This document shows, piece after piece, positions 6,894 through 18,431 of a stretch of 64,000 nucleotides of DNA (its first letter is position 1; each line of letters starts with the position of its first letter). Below the pieces are notes generated by a model. The model had not been told where the DNA came from and did no database searches. It saw only the letters and a list, made by a program, of their open reading frames with translations. This stretch comes from Amycolatopsis jiangsuensis (GTDB lineage: Bacteria; Actinomycetota; Actinomycetes; Mycobacteriales; Pseudonocardiaceae), in assembly GCF_014204865.1 (NCBI RefSeq), contig NZ_JACHMG010000001.1, forward strand, positions 310,001 to 374,000, in the 5' to 3' direction. A program made the position numbers and the translations under genes.

Positions 6894-8382
6894 CTCGCCG
6901 CTGCCTGACTCGCCACCGCTTGGTTCGACACGGCCGGATTCGCCGCTGCCCGGGTCCCTGCCGCGCCCGGGTGAGCCGGAGCTGCCGGCACAGCTGCGTC
7001 GTGCGCATCTGATCGGGATCGGCGGCGCCGGGATGTCCGGCATCGCGCGGATCCTGCTGGCCCGCGGTGCGTTCGTGTCCGGATCGGACGCCAAGGAATC
7101 GCGGGCCCTGCTGTCGTTGCGGGCGCAGGGTGCCACGTTGTTCGTGGGGCAGCGCGGGGACAACCTCGGCGCACTGGCCGAGCCGCCGTCCGCGGTGGTG
7201 GTGTCCACCGCGATCAAGGAGACCAATCCCGAGCTGGCCGAGGCCCGCGCGCAGGGCATTCCGGTGCTGCACCGGGCGCAGGCGCTCGCCGGGCTGATGG
7301 CGGGGCACCGGGTCGCCTGCATCGCGGGCACGCACGGGAAGACCTCGACCACGTCAATGCTCACCGTGGCGCTGCAGCACTGCCGGCTGGACCCGTCGTT
7401 CGCGATCGGCGGCGACCTCAACGAATCCGGCGCCAACGCCCACCACGGCGGTGGCGGGATCTTCGTGGCCGAGGCCGACGAGAGCGACGGATCGTTCCTG
7501 ACCTACACGCCGTCGGTGGCGGTCGTGACCAATGTGGAGCCCGACCACCTCGACCACCACGGCACGGCCGAGGCCTACGTGAAGGTGTTCGGCGAGTTCG
7601 CCGGCCGGCTCGAACCGGGCGGGCTGCTGATCGTGTGCGCCGACGACCCGGGTGCGAGCCGGCTCGGTGACGAGGCCGCGGCGGCCGGCGCGCGGGTACG
7701 CCGGTACGGCCGGGCCGCCACCGGCGAGGGTGACGTGCGGGTGCTCGGTTACACGCCCGCTCCGGACGGCGGCGTGGTGCGGATCGCGCTCGACGGCGTG
7801 GAGCGCGAGCTGCGGGTCGCGGTGCCGGGTGAGCACATGGCGCTCAACGCGGTCGCCGCGCTGCTCGCCGGTCTCGAGCTGGGTGCGCCCGCCGAGCGGC
7901 TGGGCGAGGGGCTGGCCGCGTTCGGCGGGGTGCGCCGCCGGTTCGAGTTCAAGGGCCGCGCGGGCGACGTGCGGGTGTACGACGACTACGCCCACCATCC
8001 GACCGAAGTGGACGCGCAGCTGCGGGCCGTGCGCACCGCTGCCGGTGCCGGCCGGGTCGTGGTGCTGTTCCAGCCGCATTTGTACTCGCGCACGCAGACT
8101 TTCGCGGCCGAGTTCGCCGAGGCGCTGTCGCTGGCCGACGAGGTCGTGGTGCTCGACGTCTTCGGCGCCCGCGAGGAGCCGGTGCCGGGCGTCACCGGTG
8201 CGTTGATCGCCGAGAAGGTGCGGGTCCCGGTGCACTACCAGCCCGCGTTCGACGTGGCCGCCGGGCTGGCCGTGGACCTGGTGAAGCCGGGCGATCTCGT
8301 GGTGACCATGGGCGCCGGCGACGTGACGCAGCTGGGCCCGGAGATCCTGGCCGAGCTGGACCGGCGGACCGCGGGCGCATGA
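6886..8382 (+). CDS. murC: MurC ligase
   Basis: UDP-N-acetylmuramate:L-alanine ligase, the first amino-acid addition in precursor synthesis. [14 protein letters not shown] near residue 45 is the UDP-binding loop, the P-loop [11 protein letters not shown] is near residue 148, and [11 protein letters not shown] marks the C-terminal domain. At 498 residues it is normal length, but the first 25 residues are an imperfect repeat of PDSPLP-type units ahead of the conserved fold. Those residues may be a disordered extension, or translation may start further in. The stop overlaps ftsQ by four bases. Confidence 0.95.
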
Positions 8383-9239
8383 CCGGAACCAGGCAGCGCC
8401 GTCGCCCCTCCTCGGCTGAGCTGGACGCCGACGAGCGCGCCGCCCTGGTACGGGAACGGCGCGGGCGGCGTTCCGAGGAGGATCGTCGCCGGACGCGCTC
8501 CCGCCGGCCCACGCAGCAGCAGCCGTCGCGCCGCTCCAGCCGGCGGTCCCGGCCCACCCGCGGCAAGGAGCTCCGCCGCCGCTGGGTGGCGTTGCTGACC
8601 GTGGTGACCGTGCTCGCTCTGGGGTATCTGCTGTTCTTCAGTTCGGTGCTTGCGGTGAAGACGGTGGCGGTGCAGGGCGCGAAAACGGTGCCCGTGGAGC
8701 GGATCCGCACCACCGCCGGGGTGCCGGCGGAGCAGCCGATGCTGCGGGTGGACGTCGACGGGATTCGTGACCGGGTGGCGCAGCTGTCCGGGATCGCGAC
8801 GGTCGACGTGTCCCGGTCGTGGCCGAGCACGCTGGAGATCGCGGTGACCGAGCGGACCGCGATCGCGTTCTTCGACAGCGGCCCGGGCGGCGACGGCGTG
8901 CACCTCGTGGACGGCGGGGGCGTGGTGTTCAAGACGGTGAAGTCCCGTCCGGCCGGGTTGCCGGAGCTGAAGCTGCCGAAGGTGTCGGCGGACGACCCGG
9001 TGACCCGCGCGGTCACCGCGGTGCTCGGCGTGATCCCGGAGACGATGCGCAAGCAGGTCACCACGGCGACGGCGAAGACTCCGGCCAGCGTCGAGTTCAC
9101 CCTGTCCACCGGCAAGACCGTGCGCTGGGGCGACGCGGAGGACACCGACCGCAAGGCGAAGGTGCTCGCCGCCCTGCTCACCCGGCCGGGCAAGGTCTAC
9201 GACGTGTCCGCGCCGGAACTGCCCACCGTCACCTCCTGA
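8379..9239 (+). CDS. ftsQ: FtsQ divisome protein
   Basis: Bitopic divisome protein linking early and late division proteins. The 286-residue product has about 65 very Arg/Ser-rich cytoplasmic residues, one membrane segment near residues 69-91 ([19 protein letters not shown]), then a POTRA domain starting [18 protein letters not shown] and a beta domain. The start overlaps murC by four bases. In Mycobacterium and Corynebacterium ftsZ follows directly; here 7.9 kb intervene. Confidence 0.92.
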
Positions 9240-10807: not shown

Positions 10808-11380
10808 ATGACGACCGCACCGGACACGCCCCGCGCGACGCCGACCGGGCACGGAACACCCAGCACGCCGGCCACCCCGACCGCGCCGGAGCGGCCCGAG
10901 CCGCCGATGGCCGGGGACGAACGTGCCCAGCTCACCGGGTTTCTCGACTTCCTTCGCGCGAGTGTGCTGTGGAAGTGCTCCGGGCTGACCGACGAGCAGG
11001 CTCGCCGGTCCCACGTGCCCAGCGAGCTGACCACGATCGCCGGCCTGCTCGGTCACCTTGCGCTGGTCGAGGACTACTGGTTCAGCGTCGTCCTCGACGG
11101 GCAGCCGGATCGCTGGGCCGAGGCTCTGGAACGCGACCGCGACGCCGAATTCCGCGTCGCGCTGGAGACCCCGATCGACCGCCTCCTGGCCGACTACCGC
11201 GCCGAGACCGACCGCAGCCGGGCGGTCGTCACCGCGCGGGGGTTCGACGACACCGTGCAGTACCAAGGAGATCCGCTGACTGTGCGCTGGGTCGTCACGC
11301 ACATGATCGAGGAGACCGCGCGGCACCTCGGCCACTTCGACCTGTTGCGCGAACTCACCGACGGACTCACCGGGGAGTGA
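10808..11380 (+). CDS. DinB-family (DUF664) mycothiol-transferase-like protein
   Basis: Four-helix DinB/YfiT-superfamily protein, 190 residues. The superfamily includes mycothiol- and bacillithiol-dependent transferases using a three-His metal site; candidate ligands are the His in LLGHLALVEDYW and those in MIEETARHLGHFDLLRE. About 40 Pro/Thr-rich residues precede the fold. A CACAAT -10-like hexamer at 10795-10800 lies seven bases before the ATG, so the mRNA is probably leaderless. The 3' end overlaps the convergent DUF1295 gene by 14 bases. Substrate unknown. Confidence 0.85.
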   Translation: MTTAPDTPRATPTGHGTPSTPATPTAPERPEPPMAGDERAQLTGFLDFLRASVLWKCSGLTDEQARRSHVPSELTTIAGLLGHLALVEDYWFSVVLDGQPDRWAEALERDRDAEFRVALETPIDRLLADYRAETDRSRAVVTARGFDDTVQYQGDPLTVRWVVTHMIEETARHLGHFDLLRELTDGLTGE

Positions 11381-12155
11381 GCCGCTTCGGTGGCAGCGGC
11401 AGGAAACCACTGGTGCGCGCCACGTAGTCGGCGTACTGCGGCCGGGACTGGCGCAGGCTCGCCTCCATCATCGGCTTGCCGGTGCCGCGCACGAGCAGGA
11501 ACGTCATCACGAGTGGCGACAGCACCGTCGCCGCCCCTGGCCACCAGGAGCAGGCCAGCAGGTAGAGGCCCCACCACACGCAGACGTCGCCGAAGTAGTT
11601 CGGATGCCGGGTGTAGCGCCAGAGCCCGGTGTCGAGCAGGCCGCCGCGGTTGGCGGGGTCGGCGCGGAACCGGCGCAGCTGCTCGTCACCCACTGCCTCG
11701 AAGACGAACCCGACCAGCCACACCACGACGCCGAGCCAGGCCGTGACGCCGAAACCCGTGCCGTACATGGCGAACTGCACCGGCAGCGACACGAACCACA
11801 GGATGACCGCCTGCAGGAGGTAGACCCGCACGAACAGCCGTCCCGCCGGGCGTGGACCGGCCCGTTCGACCATCCGCTGGTAGCGCGGATCCTCCGGTTT
11901 GCCGTGGTTGCGCAGATGCAGATGGATGCCCAGCCGCAGGCCCCACACCACGGTCAGCGCGGCGACCACCAGCCGCAGCGCCGGCGGTGCCGAACCGAAC
12001 GGCAACGCCACCACCGCGATCAGCGCGAATCCCGGACCCCAGAAGGAATCGATGGTGTCGTAGCGTCCGCGCAGCCGCGCGACGCCGAACGTCGCGGTGA
12101 CCGCCACCAGGGTCACCCCGGCGGTCAGCGCGGCCAGCGGGCCGAGTCCGATCAC
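11367..12155 (-). CDS. DUF1295 membrane protein (steroid-reductase-like)
   Basis: Integral membrane protein of the DUF1295/isoprenylcysteine methyltransferase-like group, about 262 residues with several hydrophobic segments. RYTRHPNYFGDVCVWWG is the typical C-terminal motif of this superfamily, which includes steroid 5-alpha-reductases. It is equivalent in place and family to Rv0446c beside M. tuberculosis sigK. GTG 12155 gives a four-base GTGA overlap with the upstream cfa-like gene; GTG 12161 is an alternative. It is co-transcribed with the cfa-like gene and probably acts on the same lipid, but its reaction is unknown. Confidence 0.82.
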   Translation of the reverse strand: MIGLGPLAALTAGVTLVAVTATFGVARLRGRYDTIDSFWGPGFALIAVVALPFGSAPPALRLVVAALTVVWGLRLGIHLHLRNHGKPEDPRYQRMVERAGPRPAGRLFVRVYLLQAVILWFVSLPVQFAMYGTGFGVTAWLGVVVWLVGFVFEAVGDEQLRRFRADPANRGGLLDTGLWRYTRHPNYFGDVCVWWGLYLLACSWWPGAATVLSPLVMTFLLVRGTGKPMMEASLRQSRPQYADYVARTSGFLPLPPKRLTPR

Positions 12156-13414
12156 ATCCACTCCCGCTTCAGGGGCATGCCGCTGTCGCCGTCCACGGAG
12201 GGGTGCACGGCGAGGATCTGGTCCACGCCCATCCGGTTCTCCTCGAACGCCAGTGCGCCACCGACCAGATACAGCCGCCACACCCGGGCGCCGGACTCGC
12301 CGATCAGCGCCACGGCTTCGTCCCAGTGCTGTTCCAGCGTGTCGGCCCAGGCGCGCACGGTGGGCGGGTAGTGCTCGCGCAGCGCGTGCACGTCGCGGAT
12401 CTCGAAACCGGCCGTTTCCAGGTGTCCCAAGGTGCGGCTCAGCGGGCGCATCGTCATGTCCGGGGCGATGTAGCGCTCGATGAACGCGCCGCCGCCGGGA
12501 GCCACCGCGCCACGGGACATCTGCTGCAGCAGAAGCCGTCCGGTGGGCTTGAGCATGCGCAGCAGCGTGCTCGCGTAGGTGGGGTAGTTGTCCTCGCCGA
12601 CGTGCTCGCCCATCTCGATGGAGGCGACCGCGTCGAACGGTTCCCCGGCCAGTTCGCGGTAGTCCTGCCGGCGCACCTCCACCCGGTCGTCCAGGTCGTG
12701 CTGTGCCAGGCGCGCCTTGACGTGCTGCACCTGCTCGGCGGAAATCGTCACGCCGACCGCCTGCACCCCGTGGTGCTTGGCCGCGTGCACCAGCAGCGAA
12801 CCCCAGCCGCAGCCGACGTCGAGCAACCGCATCCCCGGCCGGAGGCCGAGCTTCGCGCAGATCATCTCCAGCTTGTCGTGCTGCGCCTGTGCCAGGTCGG
12901 TGGTTCCGGAGGTCCAGTAGGCCGACGAGTACGCCATCGACTCGTCCATCAGCAGCTGGTAGAAGGCGTTCGACAGGTCGTAGTGGTGCGAGATGGCCGA
13001 CTTGTCGCGCAGCAGGGTGTGCAGGGTGCCGTTCAGCCGCGCCTCCTCGGCAGGCGGCTTCGGGGGCAGCCCGAGCACGCCCATCCGGACCGCGAGACCC
13101 GCCGCCTCGGCCCGGTCACGGGCCGACAGCCGTACGCCGCTCAGCTCGCCGGAGCGGGTCAGCGACCAGATCCGCCGGAAGCCCTCGGCCAGGTCGCCCT
13201 CCACGTCGAGGTCGCCGGACACGTACGCGCGCGCGAGGCCGAGCTCGCCCGGTGTGTAGAGCAGCCAGCGCAGCGCGCGGCGGTTCTTCAGGACCACGGT
13301 GGGGCCGTCGGGACCGGCGCGGTCGCCGTCCCAGGTGCGGACGGCCACCGGTAGCGAGGTACCGAGCAGACGCTCGACGAAAGCGGCCAGACGGGTGGCG
13401 TTGGTGTTCGGCAT
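12152..13414 (-). CDS. Cyclopropane/methyl fatty-acid synthase-like methyltransferase
   Basis: SAM-dependent methyltransferase of the CFA synthase/mycolic acid cyclopropane synthase family, 420 residues, modifying double bonds of membrane acyl chains. It has the N-terminal lipid-binding region, SHHYDLSNAFYQLLMDESM at about residues 142-160, the SAM loop LDVGCGWGSLLVHAAKHHG at 198-216, EMGEHVGEDNY, and a C-terminal YLVGGALAFEENRMG. The family's YSCAYW appears here as YSSAYW, so the usual Cys is Ser. It is the positional counterpart of ufaA1 (Rv0447c). ATG 13414 is seven bases from a SigK-type -10 element, implying a leaderless transcript. Confidence 0.88.
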   Translation of the reverse strand: MPNTNATRLAAFVERLLGTSLPVAVRTWDGDRAGPDGPTVVLKNRRALRWLLYTPGELGLARAYVSGDLDVEGDLAEGFRRIWSLTRSGELSGVRLSARDRAEAAGLAVRMGVLGLPPKPPAEEARLNGTLHTLLRDKSAISHHYDLSNAFYQLLMDESMAYSSAYWTSGTTDLAQAQHDKLEMICAKLGLRPGMRLLDVGCGWGSLLVHAAKHHGVQAVGVTISAEQVQHVKARLAQHDLDDRVEVRRQDYRELAGEPFDAVASIEMGEHVGEDNYPTYASTLLRMLKPTGRLLLQQMSRGAVAPGGGAFIERYIAPDMTMRPLSRTLGHLETAGFEIRDVHALREHYPPTVRAWADTLEQHWDEAVALIGESGARVWRLYLVGGALAFEENRMGVDQILAVHPSVDGDSGMPLKREWM

Positions 13415-13421
13415 ACCCTTG

Positions 13422-13448
13422 ATTCGGTGTGCACCGGCCCGTGGATGG
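13422..13448 (-). promoter_or_regulatory. SigK-type promoter for the cfa-like operon
   Basis: On the minus strand, -35 CCATCC (13448-13443) and -10 CCGAAT (13427-13422) are separated by exactly 15 bases. Both hexamers match the consensus I recall for mycobacterial SigK. The start ATG at 13414 lies seven bases beyond the -10, so transcription probably begins at or next to the start codon. Confidence 0.72.
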
Positions 13449-13478
13449 GTCGCCCGGGTCACACCGGCTGTCCGGGAC

Positions 13479-13505
13479 CAATCCACCCCGGCCGGGGCGC
13501 CGAAT
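13479..13505 (+). promoter_or_regulatory. SigK-type promoter for the oxidoreductase-sigK-rskA operon
   Basis: On the plus strand, CAATCC (13479-13484, five of six to CCATCC) and CCGAAT (13500-13505, perfect) are separated by 15 bases. GTG 13513 is seven bases downstream. Spacer and start distance are the same as in the divergent promoter on the other strand. Because sigK is in this transcript, the promoter would make the system autoregulatory. Confidence 0.7.
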
Positions 13506-13512
13506 CACCGGC

Positions 13513-14778
13513 GTGCACCAGACCACGGGACAACGCATCGCCGTCATCGGCAGCGGGGTGGCCGGCCTCACCGCCGCCTACCTGCTGCAGCGCCGCCACG
13601 AAGTGCTGCTGTTCGAGGCCGACGACCGGCTGGGCGGGCACGCGCACACCCACGACGTGCCGAGTACGCACGGCGGGACGATCGGCGTCGACTCCGGGTT
13701 CCTCGTCCACAACGAGCGCACCTATCCCACGCTGATCCGGCTCTTCGGGGAGCTCGGCGTGCAGACCCGCGACACCGAGATGTCGATGAGCATCCGCTGT
13801 GACGGCTGCGGGCTGCAGTACTCCGGCGCCCGCGGTCTGCGCGGCCTGTTCGCCCAGCCGCGCAACCTGACCTCCCGGCGTTACCTGCTGATGCTCGCCG
13901 AGGTCAAACGATTCCACCGGCAGGCTGCGCGGCTGCTGGCCCACCCCGAGTCCGGTGACGTCCCGCTCGGCGCCTTCCTCGCCATCGGCGGCTTCTCGCA
14001 GTACTTCACCGACCACTTCGTCCTGCCGCTCGTGTCCACGGTGTGGTCGGCCGACCGCACCGACACGATGCAGTATCCCGCGCGGTACCTGTTCGAGTTC
14101 CTCCGCAACCACGGCATGCTGACCGTCAAGAACTCACCGACCTGGCGCACGGTGGTCGGCGGCTCCCGCGAGTACGTGGAGCGGGCGGCCAAGCAGCTCA
14201 CCGCCGTGCACCTGTCCACTCCGGTCCGCTCCGTGCTGCGCACCGCCCGCGGTGTCGAGGTGCGCGACGACGCGGACACGCCGCACCGGGTGGACCGGGT
14301 CGTGGTCGCCACGCACGCCGACCAGGCGCTGGGCCTGCTCGCCGACCCCACCCCGGCGGAGAAGGAACTCCTCGGCGCGTTCCGCTACTCCCGCAACGAG
14401 GCGTTGCTGCACACCGACGCCACGGTGCTGCCCACCGTGGAGGCGGCCCGCTCGGGTTGGAACTACCGGACCCCCGAGTGCGGGTCCGACACCGGCGCGG
14501 TCCAGGTGAGCTACGACCTCAACCAGCTGATGGGGCTGGACGAGGCCACCCGCTACGTCGTCACGCTGAACCCCGGTTCGGCGCCGGGGGCCGTCCTCGC
14601 CCGGATGTCCTACGAACATCCCATCTACACGCCGGAATCCGTGGGTGCGCAACGGCGTCTGCCGGAGCTGAACGACGGCGTCCTGGCCTACGCCGGTGCC
14701 TACCATGGCTGGGGGTTCCACGAGGACGGCTGCACCTCCGGGGCACGCGCGGCAGCCAGTTTCGGGGTGGACTGGTGA
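13513..14778 (+). CDS. FAD-dependent amine-oxidase-like oxidoreductase
   Basis: Flavin oxidoreductase of the amine oxidase/phytoene desaturase-like group, 421 residues. The dinucleotide-binding motif IAVIGSGVAGLTAAYLL is at residues 9-25, followed by LFEADDRLGGHAHTH and the C-terminal closing motif LAYAGAYHGWGFHEDG. It is equivalent to Rv0449c, and homologues occur next to CFA-type methyltransferases in several phyla, so an acyl-chain substrate is likely but unproven. GTG 13513 is preferred over the longer frame from 13429 because it is placed seven bases from the SigK-type -10. It overlaps the DUF1365 gene by four bases. Confidence 0.86.
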   Translation: MHQTTGQRIAVIGSGVAGLTAAYLLQRRHEVLLFEADDRLGGHAHTHDVPSTHGGTIGVDSGFLVHNERTYPTLIRLFGELGVQTRDTEMSMSIRCDGCGLQYSGARGLRGLFAQPRNLTSRRYLLMLAEVKRFHRQAARLLAHPESGDVPLGAFLAIGGFSQYFTDHFVLPLVSTVWSADRTDTMQYPARYLFEFLRNHGMLTVKNSPTWRTVVGGSREYVERAAKQLTAVHLSTPVRSVLRTARGVEVRDDADTPHRVDRVVVATHADQALGLLADPTPAEKELLGAFRYSRNEALLHTDATVLPTVEAARSGWNYRTPECGSDTGAVQVSYDLNQLMGLDEATRYVVTLNPGSAPGAVLARMSYEHPIYTPESVGAQRRLPELNDGVLAYAGAYHGWGFHEDGCTSGARAAASFGVDW

Positions 14779-15506
14779 CCGCCGCGCTGTACGACTCCAC
14801 CGTGGCGCACGTGCGCCGGGCCGATCCGCCGTACTCCTTCGCGCACCGCATGTACGTGTGGCTGACCGACCTGGACGACCTGCCGCGGCTTCCGCGGTGG
14901 CTGCGGCCCTTCGCGCGGTTCGACGGGCGCGACCACTTCGAACCCGGTGAGCCGGGCAGCATCCGGGCCAAGCTCGACCGATGGCTGGCAGCCAGGGGGG
15001 TGAATCTGGACGGCGGCCGGGTCGTCATGCTCGCCTCGGCGCGGACACTGGGGTATGTGTTCAACCCGATCACGGTGTACTGGTGCCACACTCCCGACGG
15101 CGCGCTCGCCTGTGTCGTCGCCGAGGTGCACAACACCTACCGCGGACGGCACGCGTACCTCGTGCGGCTGGACGAACAGGCCGGCGCCGAGGTGGACAAG
15201 GAGTTCTACGTGTCGCCGTTCCAGGACCTGACCGGGCAGTACCGGATGCACCTGCCGGTCCCGGACTCGCTGCTGGCGCTCACCGTGGAGTTGCACCACG
15301 GCGGCGACACGCCGCTGGTGGCCACGCTGCGCGGTGTCCGCCGGCCGGCCGGCGGACGCGTGCTCGTCCGTTCGCTGCTGGGCAGGCCACTGCAGTCGCA
15401 GCGGGTCGCCGCGCTGATCCGCCGGCACGGCATCGCGCTCTGGCGGCGCAAGGCCGCGATGACCCCCCGGACCCGGCAGAACACCGCAGGAGCCCTGAAT
15501 GGATGA
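14775..15506 (+). CDS. DUF1365 family protein
   Basis: Conserved protein of unknown function, 243 residues. The frame begins with TAALYDSTVAHVRRADPPYSFAHRMYVWLTDLDDLPRL, the typical DUF1365 N-terminus, and contains LGYVFNPITVYWCH and SPFQDLTGQYRMHL. DUF1365 genes repeatedly accompany an FAD oxidoreductase and a CFA-type methyltransferase; Rv0448c is the M. tuberculosis counterpart. GTG 14775 gives a GTGA overlap with the upstream gene, and the stop overlaps sigK by eight bases. It may help deliver or modify the acyl substrate, which is inference only. Confidence 0.85.
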   Translation: MTAALYDSTVAHVRRADPPYSFAHRMYVWLTDLDDLPRLPRWLRPFARFDGRDHFEPGEPGSIRAKLDRWLAARGVNLDGGRVVMLASARTLGYVFNPITVYWCHTPDGALACVVAEVHNTYRGRHAYLVRLDEQAGAEVDKEFYVSPFQDLTGQYRMHLPVPDSLLALTVELHHGGDTPLVATLRGVRRPAGGRVLVRSLLGRPLQSQRVAALIRRHGIALWRRKAAMTPRTRQNTAGALNG

Positions 15507-16104
15507 GAGCGCCCGTCCCCGGCCGATCTCCGCGGTGCCGTCCGCCGGAGCGCCCGGGCCCACCGCCGAGGACCTGATGACGCTCGTCGCGAAAGGCGAC
15601 GAACGAGCCTTCGAGCAGCTCTACGACCAGCTCGCCGGACCGGTGTTCGGGCTGGTCCGCCGGATCGTGCGCGACACCGCGCAGTCCGAGGAGGTCGCCC
15701 AGGAAGTGCTGGTGGAGTTGTGGAAGACGGCCCCGCGCTACTCCGCGGACAAGGGCAGCGCGCTGAACTGGGCGATGACACTGGCGCACCGCCGCGCGGT
15801 CGACCGGGTCCGGTCGGCGAGAGCCACCACCGAACGCGAGCACAAAGCGACCTTCGAGGCCGCCCGTGGACGGCCGTTCGACGAGGTGGCGGAGTCCGTC
15901 GCGTCGCGGCTGGAGCGCTCGCAGGTGCGCCGCTGCCTGAAAACGCTCACCGAGCTGCAGCGGGAGTCCGTCCTGCTGGCCTACTACCAGGGATACACCT
16001 ACCGGCAGGTCGCCGACGTGCTGTCCACGCCGCAGGGGACGATCAAGACGAGGCTGCGTGACGGGCTCATCCGCCTGCGAGACTGCCTGGGGGTGACGGC
16101 ATGA
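15499..16104 (+). CDS. sigK: ECF sigma factor SigK
   Basis: Extracytoplasmic-function sigma factor of 201 residues with region 2 (DLMTLVAKGDERAFEQLYDQ through EVLVELWKTAPRY) and region 4 (TLTELQRESVLLAYYQGYTYRQVADVLSTPQGTIKTRL). It is assigned to SigK because the next gene encodes an RskA-like anti-sigma factor and the gene set matches the mycobacterial sigK locus. Cys146 and Cys196 are 50 residues apart, the same spacing I recall for the redox-active Cys133/Cys183 pair of M. tuberculosis SigK. ATG 15499 overlaps the DUF1365 gene by eight bases. Confidence 0.88.
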   Translation: MDESARPRPISAVPSAGAPGPTAEDLMTLVAKGDERAFEQLYDQLAGPVFGLVRRIVRDTAQSEEVAQEVLVELWKTAPRYSADKGSALNWAMTLAHRRAVDRVRSARATTEREHKATFEAARGRPFDEVAESVASRLERSQVRRCLKTLTELQRESVLLAYYQGYTYRQVADVLSTPQGTIKTRLRDGLIRLRDCLGVTA

Positions 16105-16871
16105 CCACGCCGGAAATGCACACGTTGACCGGGGCGTACGCGCTCGGCGCGCTGTCCGAGCTCGAACGCGCCCAGTTCGGCAGGCACCTGGAGCAGTGCG
16201 AGGCCTGTGCCCAGGAAGTGCGGGAGCTGACCGCGACCTCGGCCCGGCTCGGTGCCGCGATGGCCGAGGAACCGCCGCCCGAGCTGAAACAGCAGGTGAT
16301 CGCGGCGATGCGGACCACCCGTCAGCTGCCGCCGCGGTCGCGGCACGAGCAGGGGGAGCGGGTGCGCACCCCGCGCCGCCGTCCGATGATCATCACCGCC
16401 GCGGCCGCGGCCGCGGTCGTGGGGCTCGCCGCTGCCGGGGTGTTCGGCGGCGTCGCGCTGCACACCCAGAACCGGCTGGACACCGCGCAGTCGGAGCTGA
16501 GCCGGACCCGCGACCACTACCAGCCGGTGGCGGAGCTGCTGGCCGCGCCGGACGTACGCAGCGAGCACGTCACCTCGCCCAGCGGTGCCGGTGGCACGGT
16601 GCTCGCCTCGCGGCTGCTGGACCGGATGATGTTCCAGGAGGCCCAGCTGCCGACGGTGGCCTCCGGCCGGGTCTACCAGGCCTGGCTGATGGGCCCGCAG
16701 CTGGCGCCGCGCCCGGCCGGGCTGCTGCCCGGCGGGCCGTCCGGATCGCTCGTGGTCGCCGACGGGCTCTCCGGTGCCGAGCAGTTCGCGCTCAGCGTGG
16801 AACCCGCGGGCGGATCGCCCACCGGGGCACCCACCGGGGACGTCGTGCTGGTCGCCGACATGCCCGCCTAG
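16101..16871 (+). CDS. rskA: Anti-sigma-K factor RskA
   Basis: Membrane anti-sigma factor, 256 residues, expected to hold SigK inactive at the membrane and release it on regulated proteolysis. The N-terminal anti-sigma domain has HLEQCEAC (His29, Cys33, Cys36), an HxxxCxxC zinc-type motif. One membrane segment covers about residues 96-120, followed by an extracytoplasmic RskA-type domain with SGRVYQAWLMG. The start overlaps sigK by four bases. A strong hairpin follows the stop and separates this operon from ftsZ. Confidence 0.88.
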   Translation: MTTPEMHTLTGAYALGALSELERAQFGRHLEQCEACAQEVRELTATSARLGAAMAEEPPPELKQQVIAAMRTTRQLPPRSRHEQGERVRTPRRRPMIITAAAAAAVVGLAAAGVFGGVALHTQNRLDTAQSELSRTRDHYQPVAELLAAPDVRSEHVTSPSGAGGTVLASRLLDRMMFQEAQLPTVASGRVYQAWLMGPQLAPRPAGLLPGGPSGSLVVADGLSGAEQFALSVEPAGGSPTGAPTGDVVLVADMPA

Positions 16872-16872
16872 C

Positions 16873-16914
16873 AGATCCGGCATCCCCGGGTTTTCCGGGG
16901 GTGCCGCGGATCCG
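16873..16914 (+). terminator. Hairpin terminator after rskA
   Basis: A long GC-rich stem starts two bases after the rskA stop. GATCCGGCATCCCCGG pairs with a CCGGGGGTGCCG(C)GGATC arm around the loop GTTTT, with one bulged base. It would insulate ftsZ from the SigK operon. Confidence 0.7.
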
Positions 16915-17022
16915 CCGTCTTGCGCGCGGGTTCGCGTTGTGGCAAAACACCTTTGCCGCGCACGGCGTGCCTACTGGATTAGCGCCTGCCCGGTGCCTAC
17001 CGTCCTGCCTTGACGCCGGTGG

Positions 17023-17060
17023 TTGACATAACTCTCAGTCTCTGGTTGAGGTTGAGGGTT
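17023..17060 (+). promoter_or_regulatory. ftsZ: ftsZ upstream promoter/inverted repeat element
   Basis: TTGACA at 17023-17028 resembles a -35 box. Overlapping it downstream is an imperfect inverted repeat, AACTCTCA (17030-17037) and TGAGGGTT (17053-17060), seven of eight pairs. A good -10 hexamer at the usual spacing is not visible. The element lies 52-89 bases before the ftsZ ATG; its compactness suggests a regulated ftsZ promoter. Confidence 0.4.
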
Positions 17061-17111
17061 TTCCTCCCCGGCGGGCAGCACGTGCACATCACGATCAGGA
17101 AGGCGGACCCG

Positions 17112-18431
17112 ATGACGCCCCCGCACAACTACCTTGCGGTGATCAAGGTCGTCGGCATCGGCGGCGGCGGCGTGAACGCCGTGAACCGGATGATCGAGGT
17201 CGGCCTCAAGGGTGTCGAGTTCATCGCGGTGAACACCGACGCACAGGCACTGCTGATGTCCGACGCCGACGTCAAGCTCGACATCGGCCGCGAACTGACC
17301 CGCGGCCTCGGTGCGGGCGCCGCCCCCGAGGTGGGGCAGAAGGCGGCCGAGGACCACCGCGAAGAGATCGAAGAGGTCATCAAGGGCGCCGACATGGTGT
17401 TCGTGACCGCCGGTGAGGGCGGTGGCACCGGCACCGGTGGCGCCCCCGTGGTCGCGCAGATCGCCCGGAAGCTGGGCGCGCTGACCATCGGCGTGGTGAC
17501 CCGCCCGTTCACCTTCGAGGGCAAGCGCCGCGGCAAGCAGGCCGAGGACGGTATCCAGCAGCTGCGCAACGAGTGCGACACGCTGATCGTGATCCCGAAC
17601 GACCGGCTGCTGCAGCTCGGTGACATCGGCGTGTCGCTGATGGACGCGTTCCGTTCGGCGGACGAGGTGCTGCTCTCCGGTGTCCAGGGCATCACCGACC
17701 TGATCACCACGCCCGGGCTGATCAACCTGGACTTCGCGGACGTGAAGAGCGTGATGTCCGGCGCGGGCTCCGCGCTGATGGGCATCGGCTCCGCACGCGG
17801 GGAGGGCCGGGCCATCCAGGCCGCGGAGAAGGCGATCAACTCCCCGCTGCTGGAGGCCTCGATGGACGGGGCGCACGGCGCGCTGCTGTCCATCGCCGGC
17901 GGGTCGGACCTGGGACTGTTCGAGATCAACGAGGCCGCCTCGCTGGTGCAGGAGTCCGCGCACCCGGAGGCGAACATCATCTTCGGCACGATCATCGACG
18001 ATTCGCTCGGCGACGAGGTCCGGGTCACGGTGATCGCGGCCGGCTTCGACGCCGGCGCGCCCACGCACAAGAAGCTGGACCCGCCCGCGTTCGGCTCCCG
18101 GCAGAACGGCGGCGGCACCGCCTCGGCCGCGGCCGGACAGGTCGGCGGCTCGGCCCCGGCGCCACCGCCGGCCCCGCCGGCCGGGGGTGCCACGCCGGTA
18201 CCGCCGGCGGGCGGCAACGGCTACCCGCCGGTGCCGCCCCGGCCGCCGCTGCCGCAGCCCGGTGCGGGCGGCACTCCGCCGGGCGGGCTGCCGCAGCCCG
18301 GTGGCGGTTCGCGTGGCTACTCGCCGCTCGGTTCCGGGTCGGCGTCCGGCGGGCTGCCCAGCCGTCCGGCGACGGTGCACGACGATCCGAACGACGACGA
18401 GGTCGACGTCCCGCCGTTCATGCGGCGCTGA
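17112..18431 (+). CDS. ftsZ: Cell division protein FtsZ
   Basis: Tubulin-like GTPase that forms the Z-ring. The 439-residue product has the T1 loop [13 protein letters not shown], the tubulin signature GGGTGTGG at residues 104-111, and [11 protein letters not shown] (T7 loop region). A Gly/Pro/Ala linker of about 100 residues ends in [11 protein letters not shown], the C-terminal peptide that binds SepF and FtsW in actinobacteria. ATG 17112 is chosen because AGGAAGG lies nine bases upstream and the protein then starts [15 protein letters not shown]. The upstream in-frame 17010 start runs through the promoter. Confidence 0.98.

Follow-up and report, generated by a model that had tools for sequence, protein, structure and literature searches.

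The 98-bp gap at positions 13415 to 13512 of the stretch of Amycolatopsis jiangsuensis DNA analyzed here (64,000 nucleotides, hereafter the window) separates two divergent sets of genes, one of which encodes an ECF sigma factor, SigK, together with its anti-sigma factor RskA, and it raises the question of whether this sigma factor directs transcription out of the gap in both directions. The mycobacterial SigK consensus is CCATCC at −35 and CCGAAT at −10. On the minus strand of the gap, CCATCC (13448 to 13443) is followed by 15 nt, CCGAAT (13427 to 13422), 7 nt, and an ATG (13414 to 13412); on the plus strand, the order is CAATCC (13479 to 13484), 15 nt, CCGAAT (13500 to 13505), 7 nt, and a GTG (13513 to 13515). 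The hexamers, the 7 nt between each −10 box and its start codon, and the size of the gap are exactly as a first-pass annotation had given them, while the spacers it called identical are so in length (15 nt) but not in sequence. We consider it very probable, judging from sequence, that SigK acts from this gap in both directions, through one promoter for each arm of a SigK-RskA locus. Both arms are probably leaderless, in which case transcription would begin at each start codon or no more than 1 nt from it, and both messages would be translated without a leader.

Genes of the two arms

The minus arm consists of a gene for a cfa-like SAM-dependent methyltransferase (12152 to 13414; CMAS, PF02353) and one for a DUF1295 protein (11367 to 12158; assigned by Pfam), which overlaps the end of cfa and whose product also resembles, less strongly, the steroid-dehydrogenase and phospholipid-methyltransferase families. 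The plus arm encodes an FAD-dependent amine-oxidase-type oxidoreductase (13513 to 14778; PF01593 and PF13450), a DUF1365 protein (14775 to 15506; PF07103, 205.7 bits) that is the sole DUF1365 match in this genome, SigK (15499 to 16104; sigma-70 regions 2 and 4), and RskA (16101 to 16871; RskA_C, with a zinc-finger-like N-terminus). Neighboring genes overlap within each arm, by 4 nt in the case of sigK and rskA, and the enzymes probably modify membrane fatty acids. Upstream of the locus, the reading frame at 8379 to 9239 is presumably ftsQ, and the one downstream at 17010 to 18431, with a likely start at 17112, we take to be ftsZ. A search of the stretch from rskA to ftsZ (16872 to 17100) for intrinsic terminator-like sites gave none, so SigK induction might read into ftsZ. 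At the other end, a Mycothiol-S-transferase-type (DinB-like) gene (10808 to 11380) converges on the DUF1295 gene with a 14-bp overlap of their ends, and it adjoins the locus in relatives too.

That the plus arm encodes SigK and RskA, as had been proposed, is borne out by family models. SigK scores 269.5 bits against the NCBI curated model NF007228 (cut-off 226), its best PDB match is M. tuberculosis SigK (4nqw, 1.8e-42), and an RskA-type gene follows it directly. Its only cysteines, Cys146 and Cys196, align with cysteines in 4nqw, the Cys133/Cys183 pair that is reported to tune RskA binding by the M. tuberculosis protein (PMC7509140). RskA matches the C-terminal domain model PF10099 well (90.1 bits, cut-off 29.4) and the N-terminal model PF22618 below its cut-off (23.8 bits against 27); its N-terminus scores 33.6 bits as zf-HC2 (cut-off 22.2) and has an HxxxCxxC motif starting at residue 29; a hydrophobic segment follows from about residue 97.

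Specificity of the hexamer pairs

C-rich hexamers in a GC-rich genome could be paired by chance, or be shared by descent without serving any function. At the base frequencies of the window, about 0.8 matches to CMATCC-N15-CCGAAT are expected in the 8.05-Mb genome, both strands included, and the same genome holds 5 more exact matches at N14, N16, and N17, so that a bare hexamer match alone is insufficient here. Three of these 5 fall within reading frames of at least 341 aa, and one at N16 (CAATCC-N16-CCGAAT) faces away from the ferritin-like gene considered below. The search of the whole genome that the first-pass annotation had proposed, however, returned 5 matches at N15 against the roughly 0.8 expected: the present pair, single sites preceding a fasciclin lipoprotein gene and the ferritin-like gene, and one at C1:141307, in a stretch that we take, by reading rather than by family search, to be polyketide-synthase coding sequence. 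Across 80 Amycolatopsis genomes, the N15 pattern occurs 302 times, versus 117 for the same hexamers at N18, and the reversed pattern, used as a control, occurs 26 times at N15 and 3 times at N18. Since conservation is moreover confined to the hexamers, and the excess near sigK in other genera is specific to N15, we reject a chance match on these counts and spacing controls and regard chance or functionless ancestry as having practically no prospect of accounting for the sites.

One of the matches at other spacings, CCATCC-N14-CCGAAT at C1:868180 (within L011:1292-2006, C1:867491-868205), stands 8 nt ahead of a GTG that opens a reading frame; we take this frame to be a luciferase-like monooxygenase, and the site could be a further target or a product of chance.

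Conservation within Amycolatopsis

A cfa match (E ≤ 1e-150) is present in 68 of the 80 genomes, and the start region of the gene was read in all 68. Both hexamer pairs, whose conservation in relatives the first-pass annotation had made one touchstone of its reading, are conserved within the genus. Of the 68 loci, 10 have a perfect minus site and 57 have one that deviates at a single position (mostly GCGAAT as the −10), 67 in all; the plus site is found in 66 of 68, perfect in 35 loci, with one mismatch in 16, and with two in 15. The −35 hexamer reads CMATCC in 67 of 68 loci on the minus arm (13443 to 13448 in the window) and in 66 of 68 on the plus arm. The minus −10 retains a CGAA core in 67 of 68 (CCGAAT in 10, GCGAAT in 41, other forms in 16), and the 15 plus sites with two mismatches have GCGAAG (13) or GCGAAC (2). 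An ATG follows the minus −10 at exactly 7 nt in 67 of 67 loci, and an in-frame GTG follows the plus −10 at exactly 7 nt in 66 of 66. Mismatches and information content were scored with a spacer of 15 alone; in a separate scan that allowed 14 to 16, a spacer of 15 scores best. These genomes are related, so the 66 to 67 loci are not independent events; 61 of 67 minus and 62 of 66 plus 44-mers are distinct.

Information is concentrated in the hexamers, with 1.84 bits (−35) and 1.66 bits (−10) for the minus site and 1.91 and 1.63 for the plus site, whereas the two spacers average 0.58 and 0.77 bits and the 7 nt before the start codons 1.02 and 0.78. The length of this 7-nt segment is thus kept better than its letters, which matches the leaderless prediction that the promoter fixes the position of the start codon. 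The same pattern bears on the possibility that the start codons are misplaced and that the boxes are coding sequence of proteins that begin further upstream. The longest frames do enter the gap (the cfa frame from 13486, the FAD frame from 13429), but the spacers and outer flanks drift where the hexamers do not, and although gap length ranges between 69 and 374 bp across the genus, each site holds its place before its gene, with the ATG or GTG invariably at 7 nt. We therefore think misplaced starts very improbable.

The two −35 boxes lie 4 to 44 bp apart in 63 of 66 loci, which would bring two polymerases close together, to their mutual help or hindrance. Across the genus, these distances group around 4, 14, and 28 bp, and the window has 30 bp; given the relatedness of the genomes, we make no claim of helical phasing.

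The two loci without a scored plus site are those in which no FAD match adjoins cfa. In one (L095, G208:C33), cfa is on a different contig from sigK, and the plus site is missing with this separation; cfa nonetheless keeps CAATCC-N15-GCGAAT 7 nt before its ATG. The other (L133, G150), whose cfa identity is 63%, misses both sites at N15 scoring, and CCATCT-N15-CCGAAT is present there in the scan allowing spacers of 14 to 16.

Which sigma factor reads the two sites

If only the plus site were a SigK promoter, the minus site would be a mere resemblance and the cfa-DUF1295 arm would be read by a housekeeping or other ECF sigma factor. The minus −10 deviates from CCGAAT in 57 of 67 loci, and cfa has been lost while a SigK match stays in 10 of 80 genomes, as one might expect of an arm that is not tied to SigK. 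Strict co-loss of cfa and sigK can be dismissed in any case, with 12 of 80 genomes lacking a cfa match versus only 2 of 80 lacking a SigK match. Against this explanation, the minus site has at most one mismatch in 67 of 68 loci with its ATG always at 7 nt, and it persists where cfa lies on a separate contig (L095). A scan of 11200 to 17100 for sigma-70-type promoter-like sites, limited to the consensus, found none, and hence no housekeeping promoter of that kind in the gap.

The region upstream of sigK was read in all ten genomes with SigK but without cfa at the cut-off. One (L202) retains both sites in the absence of a cfa match, with the minus one now before DUF1295, which again argues for a functional minus promoter; another (L198) has cfa in two pieces and both sites kept. 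In a third (L194), none of the lipid genes is matched, and sigK is preceded by a perfect site that lies about 32 nt from an ATG. Five (L195, L197, L199, L201, L203) have the plus site only, with at most one mismatch, and a cfa that is absent, fragmented, or split: in L195, L201, and L203, the minus side holds mere remnants of lipid genes, and in L197 and L199, no minus site was found at one mismatch or fewer, though parts of cfa remain. The last two have a cfa of lower identity with one plus-strand site (L196) and a second-type SigK gene without lipid genes (L200). Overall, we find it improbable that the plus site is the only SigK promoter of the pair. The two genomes without a SigK match point in different directions, since G198 is the sole genome of the 80 without an exact N15 site, and no site was found at its ferritin-like gene (L233), whereas G216 has one exact site, which counts against a link to SigK.

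A different concern is that several ECF sigma factors, such as a second SigK-like protein, may read these sites, in which case the locus would be an output common to them rather than a switch belonging to SigK. Further SigK-like genes of about 50–63% identity occur in many members of the genus, the one in G214 is preceded by the related sequence CAATAC-N15-CCGAAT, and in genomes such as G214 and G158, a second SigK-like gene is found no more than a few kb from the fasciclin and ferritin-like genes. The genome studied here, however, has a single SigK match at E ≤ 1e-40, and its second SigK copy looks like a remnant, yet both sites in the gap are perfect. We judge shared use by several sigma factors to be unlikely, although it deserves more weight than a coincidental minus site, and favor SigK itself as the factor on which both arms would depend. 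The apparent remnant (L009:2095-2351, about C1:7163394-7163650) corresponds to residues 89 to 153 of the 199 in the G214 protein at 43% and lies behind a CAATAC-N15-CCGAAT sequence, with an rskA-like stretch after it; its counterpart in G214 is intact.

A probably wider regulon

The fasciclin (MPT70/83-like) gene, with the domain PF02469 and located in this genome at L009, is the best candidate for a SigK target outside the locus. A site with at most one mismatch precedes it in 26 of 27 genus loci, compared with 0 of 27 for the reversed control; 3 of 30 loci (L152, L153, L156) were left out of this count, as their match stops short of the N-terminus. Its −10 stands 39 to 71 nt before the start, and SigK messages therefore need not be leaderless. 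In the genome studied here, the gene also stands opposite the CAATAC-N15-CCGAAT site. The ferritin-like gene (PF13668; L010:986-2125, C1:7256985-7258124), which has an exact SigK-type site upstream, may be a target too, less surely: its N15 site is present with at most one mismatch in 10 of 30 loci and with at most two in 20 of 30, and the reversed control gives 0 of 30 at both thresholds. A relaxed scan of this genome (CMATCC-N15-NCGAAN) gave 32 matches, of which 30 were read. A filtered frame starts within 300 nt downstream in only four of the 30 (L182, L190, L192, L193), and the frame filter was so rough that it missed the pair itself, so we do not extend the regulon by it. The sites at the locus and at these genes outline a SigK regulon that is conserved in Amycolatopsis.

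SigK loci beyond the genus

The comparison with related genera that the first-pass annotation had called for reveals an excess of N15 sites near sigK. It covered 47 of 80 named sigK loci of 5–15 kb each, ranging from Prauserella and Saccharopolyspora to Streptomyces, Kitasatospora, and Leifsonia; 33 Amycolatopsis loci were left out, and three (L268, L279, L294) are still included. An N15 site with at most one mismatch is present in 37 of the 47 loci (54 sites in total), against 3–5 loci at N13, N14, N16, N17, and N18 and 1 of 47 for the reversed pattern. Among sigK loci sampled at the level of the order, 35 of 40 have an N15 site, with 2–8 at other spacers and 1 reversed. No site was found in 10 of 47 and 5 of 40 loci in the two sets. 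The 7-nt distance extends in part beyond the genus, with an ATG or GTG (reading frame unverified) 7 nt past the −10 in 7 of 12 loci of family f8.

The lipid genes travel with sigK far less faithfully. Lipid-gene matches occur in 12 of 40 order-level sigK loci (a short fragment, L351, excluded) and are absent from 28 of 40. The FAD gene is found in 83 of 150 family genomes, and 20 of these loci were read at length: 5 from Amycolatopsis itself have the full locus, 2 from g20 have the plus arm only, with CAATCC-N15-CCGAAA, and of 13 others with FAD and DUF1365 genes, only 2 (L062, L063) have sigK beside them. Outside the genus, then, the sigma factor and the lipid genes come apart, and the six genes do not form a fixed unit. 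The proposal that they form one switchable unit is supported for the two arms, each with its site, but not as a description of the whole regulon, which appears to be wider (the fasciclin gene and, less surely, the ferritin-like gene), nor for other genera, where sigK is often not linked to the lipid genes.

In one f8 genome (L319), the order FAD-DUF1365-cfa-DUF1295-sigK-rskA is found on a single strand, which is not the case here, where cfa and DUF1295 are on the opposite strand. The cfa of L319 is about 31% identical to that of the window, and identity between the divergent cfa and the cfa-like gene inside one-strand operons is in general about 30%, so the divergent locus is not simply a one-strand operon cut in two. 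Actinopolyspora and Saccharopolyspora loci contain both kinds of cfa, a divergent one at about 60% and another, ahead of sigK, at about 30%.

The proposed switch and known SigK systems

On our preferred reading, SigK freed from RskA would direct RNA polymerase to both sites of the gap. The plus arm would yield the FAD oxidoreductase, the DUF1365 protein, SigK, and RskA, and as it carries both sigK and rskA, the result would be an autoregulatory loop limited by RskA; the minus arm, presumably induced at the same time, would yield the cfa-like methyltransferase and the DUF1295 protein. The same SigK would probably read the fasciclin gene, there with a leader, and perhaps the ferritin-like gene.

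We take the six gene kinds here to be those of M. tuberculosis Rv0449c-Rv0444c, where the genes of the sigK locus run in one direction, in a layout like that of L319. The locus in the window differs in two respects: cfa and DUF1295 make up a divergent arm that has a site to itself, and RskA has an HxxxCxxC motif. What it has in common with the mycobacterial SigK-RskA regulon (Rv0449c-Rv0444c and mpt70/dipZ/mpt83) is the SigK cysteine pair, the adjoining RskA gene, the site before the sigK operon, and fasciclin (MPT70/83) targets (PMC7509140, PMC9861118). PMC7509140 also reports autoregulation of sigK via Rv0449cp in M. tuberculosis and conservation of SigK sites among Actinobacteria, and it calls the signal for SigK unknown. 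SigK sites and autoregulation are thus known from mycobacteria, and the locus here adds a divergent, probably leaderless layout. We found no description of this split layout in the SigK literature, as represented by partial texts, and no paper, among the openly licensed ones searched, that treats Amycolatopsis, SigK, and an anti-sigma factor together. A similar arrangement occurs in Saccharopolyspora (L278, L282), with a divergent cfa-DUF1295 pair and SigK-like sites facing both ways; those loci differ in having a second cfa-like gene in the sigK operon and a plus site about 0.6–0.7 kb from the FAD match. The roughly 60 natural sequence variants of the two promoters in Amycolatopsis form a test set for the rules of SigK promoters and for leaderless translation.

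Lipid chemistry

What the two arms would make can be approached through the ECF11 sigmaE-ChrR system of Rhodobacter sphaeroides, in which an ECF sigma factor and an anti-sigma factor are likewise tied to a SAM methylase, an NAD/FAD desaturase, and a DUF1365 protein (PMC7380195, PMC6852236). There, furan fatty acids are the product of UfaM (a methylase), UfaD (an NAD/FAD-domain desaturase), and UfaO (DUF1365), and they accumulate to higher levels without the anti-sigma factor ChrR (PMC7380195). The DUF1365 protein of the window carries the UfaO-type domain (PF07103), and the CMAS and Amino_oxidase/NAD_binding_8 matches fit the UfaM and UfaD kinds, a likeness at the level of domains. By analogy, actinobacterial SigK could be a counterpart of sigmaE-ChrR, with a locus that makes furan or related methyl-branched, oxygen-scavenging fatty acids, a signal of photo-oxidative or lipid-peroxide stress, and a leaderless promoter pair through which one event switches both arms; we offer this as a tentative possibility that is somewhat doubtful as it stands. 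If the link to furan fatty acids were true, SigK would acquire both a chemical role and a likely trigger, which could be tested in a soil genus.

Several observations bear on this reading. The two systems belong to different ECF groups, and RskA matches the ChrR model weakly (22.9 bits, cut-off 124.5). In favor of it, RpoE and ChrR of R. capsulatus are reported to stand nearer to M. tuberculosis SigK and RskA (34% and 25%) than to RpoE and ChrR of R. sphaeroides (24% and 13%) (PMC7074977). Also in favor, light induces two genes of M. kansasii that have putative SigK sites, one 6-fold and the other 3-fold; dipZ, which has a putative SigK site too, is not induced by light (PMC9861118), and this counts against the reading. 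The absence of adjoining lipid genes at 28 of 40 order-level sigK loci weakens the furan reading further. We found no furan-SigK link in the literature as far as its texts were available, the Rhodobacter paper (PMC7074977) naming furan in its references only.

Elsewhere among the loci read, eight from Leifsonia (L300-L306, L308) have CAATCC-N15-CCGAAT or CAATCC-N15-CCGAAC at 7128-7175, inside the sigK frame, as an internal promoter or a coding coincidence, and two from proteobacteria, Caballeronia (L309) and Frateuria (L310), bring together SigK-like, RskA-like, FAD, DUF1365, and cfa-like genes.
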